DNA of 33,641 nt from Parvibaculum sp. (GTDB lineage Bacteria; Pseudomonadota; Alphaproteobacteria; Parvibaculales; Parvibaculaceae): positions 1 through 33,641 of the forward strand of contig NZ_NYVD01000119.1 of assembly GCF_002684405.1 (NCBI RefSeq), given 5' to 3'. This document shows, one piece after another, positions 1,229-6,729 of this stretch. The first letter of the stretch is position 1, and each line of letters begins with the position of its first letter. Made by a program: the position numbers and the translations under genes. The notes under the pieces were generated by a model that saw nothing but the letters and a program-made list of their open reading frames with translations, did not search any database and was not told the origin of the DNA.

Positions 1229-1990
1229 CTACTCCGCCCGCGTCATCACATAGAACACGTATGAAAACTCGCCGATAAAGCGCTCGGCGATATCGATCTC
1301 GCGATACATCTCGTTGAAGACGGCCTTGACCTCTTCCACGCCCTCATATTCGCCCCAGCTTTTGCGGATTTCTTCCTTCATCGGACCGTAATAGTCCGTG
1401 AACCAGTCCTCTTTCGGCAGCACCGTTGTCGCCACGACGCGGTAGCCCGCTCGTTTCGCGGCCTCGCTATTGGTCTCGACCGTTCCCATGCCCGGATACA
1501 TTTCGCGCCAATAGTCCCAGGCTTCGGGCGAAGGCGTATCGGTCAGCCAGGTGAGTTCGGAGACGACGCAGGCGCCCGCGGGCTTCAAATGCCGCCGCCA
1601 GGCGCGCAAGCCATCCTCGAAGCCCATCAGATAGATCGCGCCCTCCGACCAGATGAGGTCGAATTCCCCGTCGCCGAAGGGCAGCTCTTCCATGTCGGCG
1701 CGCTTCACCGTCAGCCGCTCGTCCGGCACCTCTTCGGCCACCGCGCGCGCATGCAGCTTGTCGAGAAAGGGCTCGAAAAGATCGACCGCCGTGATGCGGC
1801 CCTGTGTCAGGGGCAGCAGATCGAAGGCTTCCGGCCCCTGCCCGCAGCCGACATCGAGAATTTCAGGCGCGGGCGGCAGCTCCGGCACCAGCGCGAACGC
1901 CTCCGCCGTTGCGCGCGCACTGCCCGGCCCGTTGCGCGGCAGCTTCAACTGAATGTCGAGAAACAGTTTGAAGGGATCGACATCGCTCAT
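1229..1990 (-). CDS. Class I SAM-dependent methyltransferase
   Basis: The product has 253 residues with a Rossmann-type methyltransferase core. Motif I is ILDVGCGQGPEAFDL (about residues 44-58), an acidic residue follows strand 2 (ITAVDLFEPFL), and a DMEELPFGDGEFDLIWSEGAI segment corresponds to motifs II-III. The acceptor substrate cannot be read from the sequence. It is the last gene of a three-gene minus-strand operon. Its ATG overlaps the stop of the upstream glycosyltransferase gene by 4 bases (ATGA), which suggests translational coupling. The upstream partners are TIGR04282/TIGR04283 types whose family names mention arsenosugar synthesis. This protein has only two cysteines (in VGCGQG and GACVV) and lacks the cysteine set expected of ArsM arsenite methyltransferases, so I do not call it arsM. 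Confidence 0.88.
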   Translation of the reverse strand: MSDVDPFKLFLDIQLKLPRNGPGSARATAEAFALVPELPPAPEILDVGCGQGPEAFDLLPLTQGRITAVDLFEPFLDKLHARAVAEEVPDERLTVKRADMEELPFGDGEFDLIWSEGAIYLMGFEDGLRAWRRHLKPAGACVVSELTWLTDTPSPEAWDYWREMYPGMGTVETNSEAAKRAGYRVVATTVLPKEDWFTDYYGPMKEEIRKSWGEYEGVEEVKAVFNEMYREIDIAERFIGEFSYVFYVMTRAE

Positions 1991-2598
1991 TTGCGCTTCC
2001 GTCTTTCGGTCTCTTTCCAGCGGCGGTAATCCGCGCCGGTATCCACATCGTTCAAGGTGTCGGCAAGGGCAAGCGTCAGCCCTGCCCTTTCGATATTCGC
2101 CTTCGTATCGGCCAGCGTGTGCTCGCTCGACCAGCGCACATCCTCGAAGATTTCCGTCACGCGCGGAAAGCGTTTCATGCCGACAAGCCAGTAACCGCCA
2201 TCCTCCGCCGGTCCGAGCACGGTATCGGCCCGGCCCAGCGCCGCAAAGGCGCGGGCGATATGATCGCGCGTAATGCCGGGAATATCGCCGCCGACGATCA
2301 CCACCGGGCCCCGCGGCAGATCGCGAAAGAGCCGTCCCATCCGGTCGCCCAGATCTCCCGCCCCTTGCGCGATGCGCGGCACGCCCGCCGGCCAGACGCC
2401 CGTCTCATGCACCGCGCGATCCGGCGTCAGAGCCAGGACGGTCTGCCAGCGCGGATCGGGGGCGACGCGCCTCAGCAGATCGCCGCATGTCCGGCGAAAA
2501 AAGGCGAGCGCGGCCACATCGCCGATCTCGCGGGCAAGGCGGGTCTTCACCCGGCCGAGGCGCGGTGCCTTGGCCATGACCACGAGCTGCCTGTCCAT
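1987..2598 (-). CDS. TIGR04282/DUF2064-family glycosyltransferase (nucleotidyl-transferase-like fold)
   Basis: The product has 203 residues, normal for the family. It shows the N-terminal MAKAPRLGRVKTRLA motif (residues 8-22), the VVIVGGDIPGI segment with an acidic metal-site candidate, and GPAEDGGYWLVGM, all typical of DUF2064 proteins with a GT-A-like fold. The family is named for arsenosugar biosynthesis because members co-occur with arsM and arsS in some genomes; the actual reaction is poorly established. The start ATG lies 12 bases after the stop of the TIGR04283 gene, and its stop overlaps the methyltransferase start. The three genes very probably act in one pathway that builds and methylates a small glycosylated compound or glycolipid, which is inference from gene order. 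Confidence 0.88.
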   Translation of the reverse strand: MDRQLVVMAKAPRLGRVKTRLAREIGDVAALAFFRRTCGDLLRRVAPDPRWQTVLALTPDRAVHETGVWPAGVPRIAQGAGDLGDRMGRLFRDLPRGPVVIVGGDIPGITRDHIARAFAALGRADTVLGPAEDGGYWLVGMKRFPRVTEIFEDVRWSSEHTLADTKANIERAGLTLALADTLNDVDTGADYRRWKETERRKRK

Positions 2599-2610
2599 GA
2601 AATATTCCGT

Positions 2611-3306
2611 TTACTGATAGATTCGGGCGATCAGCCGGGGCGGCACGCGCAGATAATAGAGCGTGAGGCAGGTGAAATTGCGCAGCATGCGCGCGGCAAA
2701 GCCGTCGCGGATATAGCGGTCCGGGCTCGTGACGGCGCGCGAGCGCAGCATCACCAGACGCCGCCGCCCGATCCGGCGCACGAGGTCCACATCCTCCATC
2801 AGCGGCATGTCGCGATAGCCGCCGAGCTTTTCGTAAAGCCGCCGGTTGATGAGCAGCCCCTGATCGCCATAGGGCAGGCGCAGGATCGCGCAGCGCAACG
2901 CCACCATGGTTTCCAGAAAGCGCGCCCAGCCGGAAAAATCGTCCAGCGTGAAACGGAAAGCGGCGGCGATCTCGGAGCTGCGGAAGCGTCCGGCCTCGAC
3001 CTGCTCCAGGAATTTCGACACTTCTTCGTCCCAGCCCGTTTCCAGCACCGTGTCGGCATGGAGAAAGAGCAGCCAGTCGCCTTTCGCCTCGCGCGCGCCG
3101 GACGCAAGCTGGGGGCCCCGCCCCCGCTCGCCCGCTACCAGATGGGCGCCGGCCGCCTCGACCACGTCCAGCGTGCCGTCGGTGGAACCGCCATCGGACA
3201 CGATGACTTCCTTCACGCGGCCGCGCACCACCGCGCCCACCAGCGGGAACATGGCGCGGGGCAGTTCGTCTTCGGCATTCAGGGTCGGAATGATCACACT
3301 CAACAT
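2611..3306 (-). CDS. TIGR04283-family glycosyltransferase (GT2 fold)
   Basis: From ATG 3306 the product has 231 residues. It opens MLSVIIPTLNAEDELPRAM, continues with the GT2 nucleotide-binding stretch VIVSDGGSTDGTLDVV, and has LLFLHADTVLE as the DxD-like metal site. The C-terminal NFTCLTLYYLRVPPRL segment is also family-like. A TTG nine bases further upstream (3315) would add three residues, but GT2 proteins usually begin at MxSVIIPTLN, so ATG 3306 is preferred. It is the first gene of the operon with the TIGR04282 and methyltransferase genes. It is divergent from the radical SAM gene at 3407, with about 100 bp between starts, so the LexA box at 3369-3383 could affect both. The sugar and acceptor are unknown. 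Confidence 0.9.
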   Translation of the reverse strand: MLSVIIPTLNAEDELPRAMFPLVGAVVRGRVKEVIVSDGGSTDGTLDVVEAAGAHLVAGERGRGPQLASGAREAKGDWLLFLHADTVLETGWDEEVSKFLEQVEAGRFRSSEIAAAFRFTLDDFSGWARFLETMVALRCAILRLPYGDQGLLINRRLYEKLGGYRDMPLMEDVDLVRRIGRRRLVMLRSRAVTSPDRYIRDGFAARMLRNFTCLTLYYLRVPPRLIARIYQ

Positions 3307-3368: not shown

Positions 3369-3383
3369 GTTCTTGTTCTGTTC
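3369..3383 (+). promoter_or_regulatory. Candidate LexA (SOS) operator, alphaproteobacterial GTTC-N7-GTTC type
   Basis: The sequence GTTCTTGTTCTGTTC is an exact direct repeat GTTC-N7-GTTC, the established LexA recognition form in alphaproteobacteria, with the common GTTCT...TGTTC flanks. It ends 23 bases before the ATG of the SplB-like radical SAM gene at 3407. Further GTTC copies lie within it (3375) and after it (3388), so the exact operator register is uncertain. SOS control fits the DNA-repair-related annotation of this protein family. Confidence 0.65.
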
Positions 3384-3406
3384 TATCGTTCTGGTAGGAT
3401 TTCCTC

Positions 3407-4612
3407 ATGACGATGAGTCGCCACATAGCGCGTCCCGGCCGCACCGCCCGTCCCCACGCCAGTTCCCCGATTGGCTCCAAGGCGGTGGCGCGGCCGTCCC
3501 GGCTCCCCAACGCCCCGTCCCCCGTACCCCAAGGCGTGAGCGAGCCCAACCTGCCCCCCGATGGCCGCCGTGGCCGGGGCGCGCTTACCAACCGCTCGGG
3601 CCGGTTCGAGCCGCGCGGCTATGAGCTGGAAGACGATGGCTGGGAGGGGCTTTCGGCCATCCCGGCGCTGAAGACCGAAGTGACGGTCGAGAGCCCGAAG
3701 ACCATCATTACGCGCAACCAGTCGCCCGACATTTCCTTCGACCGCTCGATCAATCCCTATCGGGGCTGCGAGCATGGCTGCGTCTACTGCTTCGCACGGC
3801 CGACCCACGCCTATATGGGGCTGTCGGCCGGGCTCGATTTCGAGAGCCGCCTCTTTGCCAAGCCCAATGCGGCGCAGCTTCTGGCGCGCGAGCTTTCAAA
3901 GCCCGGCTATGAGGTGCGCCCCATCGCCATCGGCACCAATACCGACCCCTATCAGCCGATCGAGCAGCGCTACCGCATCACGCGGTCGATCCTCGAGGTG
4001 CTGTCGGCCTATAACCATCCCGTCACCATCGTGACCAAATCCGCGCAGGTGACGCGCGATCTCGACATCCTGTCCGACATGGCGGAACGCAATCTCGTCA
4101 AGGTCGCGATCTCGGTGACGACGCTGGATGCTAGGCTCGCCCGCAAGATGGAGCCGCGCGCCTCGACCCCGTCCAAACGCATGGAGGCGCTTTCCATCCT
4201 GTCGGAAGCAGGCGTACCGACGGGCGTGATGGTCGCGCCCGTCATCCCCGCCCTCAACGACAGCGAGATCGAACGCATATTGCAGGGCGCGGCCCATGCG
4301 GGCGTCGCGCAGGCCGGTTTCGTCCTGTTGCGCCTGCCGCTCGAAATCGCCGACCTCTTCAAGGAGTGGCTGGCCGAAAACGTGCCGGACAGCGCCGATC
4401 ACGTCATGTCCCTCATCCGCCAGATGCGCGGCGGCAAGGAATATGACGCCGAATGGAGCCGCCGCATGAAGGGCACCGGCCCTTACGCCTGGCAGATCGC
4501 CCGCCGCTTCGAAATCGCCGCCCGCAAGCTCGGCCTCAACCGGATCAAGTCCGACCTCGACTGCACGCAGTTCATGGTGCCCGGCCGGGGCAAGCAGCTG
4601 GAACTGCTTTAG
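3407..4612 (+). CDS. PA0069-family radical SAM protein (SplB-like, COG1533)
   Basis: The product has 401 residues. The radical SAM [4Fe-4S] motif CEHGCVYC (CxxxCxxC) is followed by FARPTHAYMG, the hallmark of the PA0069 / COG1533 group related to spore photoproduct lyase. Other family segments are IAIGTNTDPYQPIEQRYRITR, TKSAQVTRDLDIL and the C-terminal DCTQFMVPGRGKQLEL. The first 75 or so residues are basic, proline-rich and probably disordered. The in vivo substrate is not known; a DNA photolesion or nucleic-acid role is usually proposed. ATG 3407 has a TAGGAT stretch ahead as ribosome binding site. A LexA-type box lies directly upstream, which supports a DNA-damage role. A palindromic repeat follows the stop codon. 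Confidence 0.92.
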   Translation: MTMSRHIARPGRTARPHASSPIGSKAVARPSRLPNAPSPVPQGVSEPNLPPDGRRGRGALTNRSGRFEPRGYELEDDGWEGLSAIPALKTEVTVESPKTIITRNQSPDISFDRSINPYRGCEHGCVYCFARPTHAYMGLSAGLDFESRLFAKPNAAQLLARELSKPGYEVRPIAIGTNTDPYQPIEQRYRITRSILEVLSAYNHPVTIVTKSAQVTRDLDILSDMAERNLVKVAISVTTLDARLARKMEPRASTPSKRMEALSILSEAGVPTGVMVAPVIPALNDSEIERILQGAAHAGVAQAGFVLLRLPLEIADLFKEWLAENVPDSADHVMSLIRQMRGGKEYDAEWSRRMKGTGPYAWQIARRFEIAARKLGLNRIKSDLDCTQFMVPGRGKQLELL

Positions 4613-4623
4613 TTCTCCCTGCT

Positions 4624-4712
4624 TGTCATTGCCGGGCTCGACCCGGCAATCCAGCGCAACAATGCGCGGCAAATGCCGCTCTGGATGCCCGGATCAAAGT
4701 CCGGGTATGACA
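4624..4712. repeat. Composite palindromic repeat (two hairpins flanking a core)
   Basis: The left arm runs TGTCATTGCCGGGC to CCCGGCAATCCAG and forms one hairpin. A core of about 25 bases follows (GCGCAACAATGCGC...). The right arm runs CTGGATGCCCGG to CCGGGTATGACA and forms a second hairpin. The outer ends are inverted (TGTCAT / ATGACA), as are the inner ends (ATCCAG / CTGGAT). It is closely similar to the copy at 6642-6729. It fills the space between the radical SAM gene and rnhB and may terminate or stabilise the upstream transcript. Confidence 0.8.
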
Positions 4713-5388
4713 GTTGAGATTTGGCGAGGAAAATCACAAACTCCGCCCCATGCCGCGCCCCGCCAAACCGAAAACCACCACCACGCCCGACTTCGCCTTC
4801 GAGGAAGCAGCAGGCGCGCCCGCCGCGCTTGTCTGCGGCGTGGACGAAGCGGGCCGGGGTCCGCTGGCCGGGCCCGTCGTTGCCGCCGCCGTCATTCTCG
4901 ATCCCGCGCATCTTCCGCCCGGCCTCAACGACTCCAAAAAGCTCACCGCGAAGAAGCGCGAGGCGCTTTACGACCTCATCCGCGATCAGGCGCAGGTCGG
5001 CATCGGCATGGCGAGCGTCAAGGAGATCGACCGCATCAACATCCTCGCCGCCTCCATGCTGGCCATGCGCCGCGCCGTGGCGGCCCTGCCCGCCGCGCCC
5101 GCCCACGCCCTGATCGACGGCAACCGGTCGCCGGAGCTTCCCTGCCCCGCCACCCCCGTCGTCAAAGGCGATGCGCGCTCGCTCTCCATCGCCGCGGCCT
5201 CCATCATCGCCAAGGTCACGCGGGACCGGATGATGGTCGAAATGGCCGCCGACTTTCCGGCCTATGGATTCGAGCGGCATATGGGCTACGGCACGAAACA
5301 GCACCTCGAAGCGCTCGAAAAAGCCGGCGCCTGCCCGCATCACCGAAAAAGTTTCGCGCCCGTCGCCGCCCTTGGAACCCAAGATATT

Positions 5389-6633
<1,245 letters not shown>

Positions 6634-6641
6634 TCCTCATT

Positions 6642-6729
6642 TGTCATTGCCGGGCCCGCCCCGGCAATCCAGCGCAACAATGCGCAGCACGCGCCGCTCT
6701 GGATGCCCGGATCAAGTCCATGCATGACA
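6642..6729. repeat. Composite palindromic repeat, same subfamily as 4624-4712
   Basis: It begins TGTCATTGCCGGGC, shares the core AATCCAGCGCAACAATGCGC with the copy at 4624-4712, and continues CTCTGGATGCCCGGATCAAG. The right arm has decayed at its end (TCCATGCATGACA), so its hairpin is weaker. It starts 8 bases after the ccrM stop. Confidence 0.8.

Follow-up and report, generated by a model that had tools for sequence, protein, structure and literature searches.

The closest solved fold to the one predicted for the protein considered here is that of spore photoproduct lyase, represented by SplB of Bacillus subtilis, whose cluster cysteines are C91, C95 and C98, whose fourth cysteine, C141, is essential, and in which Y97 and Y99 belong to a radical relay (excerpts of PMC3742179 and PMC5368176); spore photoproduct itself is there described as a product of spore DNA (PMC3742179). 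LexA control of splB was predicted in 2012 by Sanchez-Alberola et al. for alpha- and betaproteobacteria and, according to the excerpt of that paper used here, was not observed in gammaproteobacteria (PMC3323433). Excerpts of other papers describe SOS regulation of SplB (COG1533) in several species (a 2021 Bacteroidetes paper, PMC8565304), a radical SAM protein as a member of the core regulon of Gram-positive bacteria (PMC7739468), SplB-like proteins tied to SOS gene neighbourhoods (PMC3765255) and, from ChIP-seq and RNA-seq, a radical SAM gene, vnz_31145, in the LexA regulon of Streptomyces venezuelae (PMC9380542); the excerpts of PMC6473078 and PMC12700426 do not mention the gene. In the literature searched, no paper was found to place a LexA box at a gene by the name of PA0069, and an earlier report is possible. 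LexA control of PA0069 or Rv2578c may reportedly have been noted already by da Rocha in 2008 (Caulobacter), by Cirz in 2006 (Pseudomonas aeruginosa) or by Davis in 2002 (Mycobacterium tuberculosis).

The locus analysed here lies in a stretch of 33,641 nucleotides from Parvibaculum sp. (hereafter the window) and comprises the following features.

2611–3306, minus strand: TIGR04283 glycosyltransferase gene, divergent (profile match); a neighbour, doubted as a conserved target
3369–3383, plus strand: predicted LexA box GTTCTTGTTCTGTTC (GTTC-N7-GTTC); exact match, kept at 79/91 alphaproteobacterial orthologues
3373–3378, plus strand: proposed −35 element TTGTTC, within the box; inferred from the constant box-to-TAnnnT distance at 23/23 loci
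3395–3400, plus strand: proposed −10 element TAGGAT (TATACT in many relatives); positional alignment of 23 loci
3407–4612, plus strand: PA0069-family radical SAM gene, 401 aa, with C121-x3-C125-x2-C128 (NF033668; 202-sequence alignment)
4613–4749, plus strand: structured repeat between PA0069 and rnhB (fold z-score −4.78)
4750–5460, plus strand: rnhB (ribonuclease HII), possible operon partner; NCBIfam ribonuclease HII models above cut-off
5461–6633, plus strand: ccrM-like adenine DNA methyltransferase gene; NF050803 650.9 bits, under the cut-off of 830; N6_N4_Mtase and RAMA domains

The gene starting with the ATG at 3407 is a PA0069-family radical SAM gene, as a preliminary description of this DNA had proposed (NF033668, 550.8 bits against a cut-off of 360). 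The nearest other sequence family is that of Rv2578c (NF038135), yet at 226.3 bits the protein falls under its cut-off of 430. That description had also read an exact GTTC-N7-GTTC just upstream of the start codon as a LexA box. Both strands of the window were scanned, and the sole exact match is the plus-strand site at 3369–3383, GTTCTTGTTCTGTTC, separated from the ATG by 23 bp. When the window is shuffled with its dinucleotides preserved, an average of 0.92 matches turns up, and by itself the match therefore carries no significance. The two extra GTTC copies previously thought to create overlapping registers do exist (3375–3378 and 3388–3391), but the registers do not: only the 3369/3380 pair is 11 bp apart, and the copies at 3375 and 3388 have no partner at that distance. 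The 3375 copy is moreover part of the box spacer and is not kept, since most Parvibaculum-type relatives have TTGTTAT at the same place; overlapping LexA registers were accordingly rejected.

It is comparison across orthologues, rather than the bare match, that decides for the box. A search of named genomes yielded 80 loci, which record titles divided into 59 alphaproteobacterial and 21 others; with one locus lacking upstream DNA dropped (L083), a box lay within 300 bp upstream in 55/58 alphaproteobacterial loci, as against 0–3 of 58 when the spacing was altered or the motif rearranged, and 14/1026 blocks elsewhere in the same loci. Because many of the 80 loci represent close relatives, the class was also sampled evenly. 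The PA0069 family scored above cut-off in 92 of 190 alphaproteobacterial genomes, and 91 of these, the window's own genome being excluded, were counted over −400 to +60 relative to the start of the model match (two come from the window's own family, and in G178, where the gene is split across contigs, the N-terminal piece was used). Exact GTTC-N7-GTTC was present at 79/91, and this exceeds chance: other spacings scored 0–3, and shuffles averaged 1.3 and never went above 3. Six additional alphaproteobacterial genomes had it without exception (6/6). Twelve of the 91 orthologues are without the exact box; ten of these hold some one-mismatch match in the region. L185, with GTACTTGTTTTGTTC, and L191, with GCTCTTGTTGTGTTC, are examples; other matches among the ten look like chance. 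Loss of lexA was rejected as the cause of the missing boxes, lexA being found in all 12 genomes concerned. In the nearest named relative found, Parvibaculum indicum (L076, 93% protein identity), one base of the second half-site is changed (GTTCTTGTTCTGCTC), so control may be weaker there.

Among 26 non-alphaproteobacterial orthologues, taken from a sample of the phylum Proteobacteria, the alphaproteobacterial box was found at none (0/26), and the gammaproteobacterial LexA box CTGT-N8-ACAG at 18/26 (shuffles: mean 0.12, maximum 1); the corresponding counts for the 21 non-alphaproteobacterial loci of the first set were 0/21 and 12/21. A third box type, TTAG-N6-TACTA (TTAGTAATAATACTA), stands before the PA0069 gene of locus L258 (genome G266), and in this genome and two more of the same family lexA has TTAGTAGTA[A/T]TACTA just ahead of its start; the PA0069 genes of those other two genomes did not have the third type. 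None of the three types was found at 7/26 orthologues, and of the eight genomes without the gammaproteobacterial box, three are without lexA above cut-off (G212, G284 and G290). The site shifts together with the repressor's own specificity, which points to LexA rather than another factor. The PA0069 orthologues of Legionella (L123, L127) carry CTGTTTGTTTGAACAT, one mismatch off the gammaproteobacterial box and possibly a relic of it; Legionella is a genus not known to possess LexA.

The window's own genome (3.42 Mb in 184 contigs) contains 84 matches to GTTC-N7-GTTC compared with 61 for the reversed pattern, and hence most matches are background and a bare match is weak evidence. It possesses recA and, by profile search, lexA (C99:1196-1894, 176.9 bits), the latter itself preceded by an exact box at C99:1098-1112. 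Exact boxes also precede recA, uvrA (about 0.3 kb upstream of the gene), imuA, dnaE (two boxes, at 205 and 231 bp) and yifB/comM, and one stands at an imuB-like start; the scores behind the names imuA and imuB-like do not reach the model cut-offs, and for uvrA and dnaE the frames are incomplete, running off the ends of the stretches analysed. The uvrA and imuA boxes are GTTCTTGTTTTGTTC, differing from that of the window by one spacer base. An excerpt of PMC3323433 names dnaE and comM as Caulobacter SOS genes. Apart from PA0069, the boxed genes identified in the genome are mainly concerned with DNA repair or replication. Two other boxes, GTTCTTGTATTGTTC (L033 1501) and GTTCTTGAAATGTTC (L058 1501), are found close to a hydrolase frame that is phage-like or gene-transfer-agent-like and to a gene for a serine recombinase; these are possibly mobile or phage-derived genes under SOS control.

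Promoter geometry could be compared at 23 loci in which a divergent glycosyltransferase gene lies next to PA0069. In all of these (23/23), TAnnnT, often TATACT, starts 26–27 bp past the start of the box; a TTGTTA-like −35 would then fall inside the box at a spacing of 16–17 bp, and in most loci the ATG follows 6–7 bp past the proposed −10. From this arrangement we infer that LexA would block the −35 and that the mRNA would begin at or next to the AUG, that is, be leaderless. A consensus promoter scan of the window did not list the proposed −35/−10, the hexamers there being weak. These sequence comparisons (79/91 orthologues, the motif switch and the geometry) lend strong support to the proposal that the box brings the PA0069 gene into the SOS regulon: LexA regulation of the PA0069-family gene appears highly likely, and the enzyme very probably belongs to the response to DNA damage.

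On the plus strand, PA0069, rnhB and the ccrM-like gene stand in line (3407–6633). The ribonuclease gene follows PA0069 directly and on the same strand in 26/59 alphaproteobacterial loci, with a gap of 24 bases in L124. Transcription induced in the SOS response might continue into the ccrM-like gene for the GANTC methyltransferase. The intergenic repeat occurs at 4613–4749 and again at 6647–6672; when up to three mismatches are allowed, its 26-base core has 11 occurrences across the genome (control 0), and it looks like a REP-type element. On the minus strand, the TIGR04283 gene is followed by a TIGR04282 gene and then by a methyltransferase-like gene, and these ‘arsenosugar’ glycosyltransferase genes and their methyltransferase-like companion (1229–3306) stay together beside PA0069 in many relatives.

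Residue conservation was read from an alignment of 202 PA0069-family sequences, from which L158, L159, L274 and translations of ≤250 residues had been excluded. The CX3CX2C [4Fe-4S] motif (C121, C125 and C128) is present in 202/202, and these are the only invariant cysteines: no fourth conserved cysteine was found, no other place in the alignment having cysteine in more than 72/202, and a cysteine near the active site may occur in a subset of members. Y127, at the place of SplB Y97 before the last cluster cysteine, is invariant in the 202 sequences; the residue after that cysteine, at the place of Y99, is Phe in 141/202 and Tyr in 61/202, and is F129 in the window protein. The first ~55 residues (3407–3571) form an N-terminal extension ahead of the family core, with an NSPI-type motif common to most of the Parvibaculum-type relatives shown. 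When a fold model (AlphaFold2, 36-row alignment, mean pLDDT 75.8, N-terminus of low confidence) was compared with solved structures, the six best chains were all spore photoproduct lyase (Z 18.5–19.1, rmsd 3.5–4.0, 266–273 residues aligned); the next family scored Z 14.6, with NifB and lipoyl synthase among those at Z 13–15. When the PDB was searched by sequence, using the family profile, spore photoproduct lyase was absent from the hits (the best was SkfB, E 0.0028), so the likeness came from fold comparison only. The cut-offs of the spore photoproduct lyase families were likewise missed (TIGR04070, 17.1 bits against 400; PF20903, 15.5 against 27), and PF20903, which marks true spore photoproduct lyase, was above cut-off in only 3/181 alphaproteobacterial genomes. 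Since the SplB Cys-Tyr relay is not conserved, the enzyme, if acting in this way, should consume SAM.

The explanation that best fits the whole, to which we give a probability of roughly 0.8, is that LexA has a functional operator at 3369–3383, covering the −35 region of a PA0069-family promoter, and that the gene's product most likely acts on damaged DNA. The course of events that we infer would be as follows. LexA would occupy the operator in undamaged cells and so block RNA polymerase; on damage, RecA filaments would provoke LexA self-cleavage and the promoter would open, with PA0069 transcribed from the AUG or next to it; and the enzyme, with a predicted spore photoproduct lyase fold, would most likely attack damaged DNA by hydrogen abstraction through a 5′-deoxyadenosyl radical, but would lack the relay of cysteine and tyrosine that serves to regenerate SAM in spore photoproduct lyase. 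This explanation is preferred because of the boxes in 79/91 and 55/58 alphaproteobacterial loci, the LexA boxes that each lineage has as its own, the presence of lexA, recA and boxed SOS genes, the geometry, the fold and the cysteines. Counted against it are the mismatch in P. indicum, the 12/91 alphaproteobacterial misses despite lexA, the 7/26 non-alphaproteobacterial orthologues with no box and the weak hexamers.

Other explanations bear either on the site or on the enzyme. The expectation of 0.92 matches per window, together with the largely background nature of the 84 genomic matches (61 for the reversed pattern), is what one would bring in favour of a functionless chance match, but an exact box at 79/91 orthologues across the class, where shuffles average 1.3, led us to reject this, and we consider it extremely improbable. 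Alternatively, the box might belong to the divergent glycosyltransferase operon or be shared between that operon and PA0069. The preliminary description gave about 60 bp as the distance to that operon, and the ATG at 3306 indeed lies 62 bp from the box; the two genes form a divergent pair at 23 of the loci studied. Over those same loci, however, the distance from box to PA0069 has a standard deviation of 7 bp and that from box to glycosyltransferase one of 186 bp, the latter gene lying more than 500 bp away in 5/23, so that the site is tied in position to the radical SAM gene and not to its divergent neighbour. Nor was a glycosyltransferase gene found by tblastn beside PA0069 in loci L099–L155, save in L099 (partly), L124 and L137, and most alphaproteobacterial ones among these keep the box. 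The operon was therefore rejected as the main target, and its being served by the box at all is very improbable; of the earlier suggestion that it might be affected too, what stands is a possible incidental effect in this strain, while a conserved role is unlikely.

With LexA control of PA0069 taken as the preferred reading of the site, the substrate can be weighed in turn. An ordinary, SOS-regulated spore photoproduct lyase repairing 5-thyminyl-5,6-dihydrothymine would agree with the splB label and with the best fold match; a true spore photoproduct lyase was rejected on the scores far under both family cut-offs, on the 202 sequences, which share no fourth cysteine, and on the Phe that the window protein has at the place of the relay tyrosine Y99. 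Spore formation is not known from Parvibaculum. The excerpt of the 2012 paper presents the alphaproteobacterial gene as a spore photoproduct lyase homologue (PMC3323433), against which stands the description of spore photoproduct as a product of spore DNA in the excerpt of PMC3742179. On the whole, an ordinary lyase is improbable, if a little less so than service to the glycosyltransferase operon. A more serious contender, though still unlikely, is that the gene is SOS regulated and its enzyme acts on an RNA, protein or metabolite made under stress. Radical SAM families with non-DNA substrates (NifB, lipoyl synthase) match the model at Z 13–15, and the position directly upstream of rnhB in 26/59 alphaproteobacterial loci cannot by itself separate DNA from RNA; on the other hand, the nearest fold is that of a DNA repair enzyme, well above the others, and the other boxed genes identified in the genome are mainly those of DNA repair or replication. 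The inference of a repair role from SOS membership, made in the preliminary description, is plausible, and DNA, to judge from the modelled fold and the regulation, is somewhat favoured as the substrate.

The SOS placement in several lineages tells when the protein is made and narrows the search for its substrate to damage chemistry, in a family that is widespread (above cut-off in 92/190 sampled alphaproteobacterial genomes). A tentative extension would make the PA0069 family a core proteobacterial SOS enzyme for the direct reversal of some DNA lesion, not spore photoproduct, SOS control having been kept or regained while the LexA motif changed at least twice; the missing Cys-Tyr radical relay would mean that SAM is consumed in the process. 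If true, this would place the family among the small number of enzymes that work by direct reversal and are controlled by SOS.

SplB (PDB 4FHC and 4K9R) and the PA0069 protein are alike in fold, as modelled for the latter, in the CX3CX2C motif and in the Tyr before the last cluster cysteine, but SplB has C141 and Y99, whereas the PA0069 family is without a conserved fourth cysteine and has Phe at the Y99 place in 141/202. Residues needed by spore photoproduct lyase are thus not conserved, and the common ‘spore photoproduct lyase’ label should not be read as function. The gene vnz_31145 is a radical SAM gene under LexA, as that of the window is predicted to be, and differs in phylum and in type of box (excerpt of PMC9380542). 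The splB predicted in 2012 shares with our gene a LexA box before an SplB-homologue radical SAM gene in alphaproteobacteria (excerpt of PMC3323433), and, because PF20903 is above cut-off in so few alphaproteobacterial genomes, it most likely belongs to the PA0069 family. The same excerpt differs from the present results in not observing the trait in gammaproteobacteria; here, CTGT-N8-ACAG is found at 18/26 non-alphaproteobacterial orthologues. It also takes the protein for a photoreactivation enzyme, a reading that finds no support in the residues. That ‘splB’ is under SOS control in alpha- and betaproteobacteria had already been predicted (PMC3323433); the present analysis adds boxes of the gammaproteobacterial type, a count across the class, the geometry of the promoter, a predicted SplB fold without a conserved fourth cysteine, and the residue evidence.
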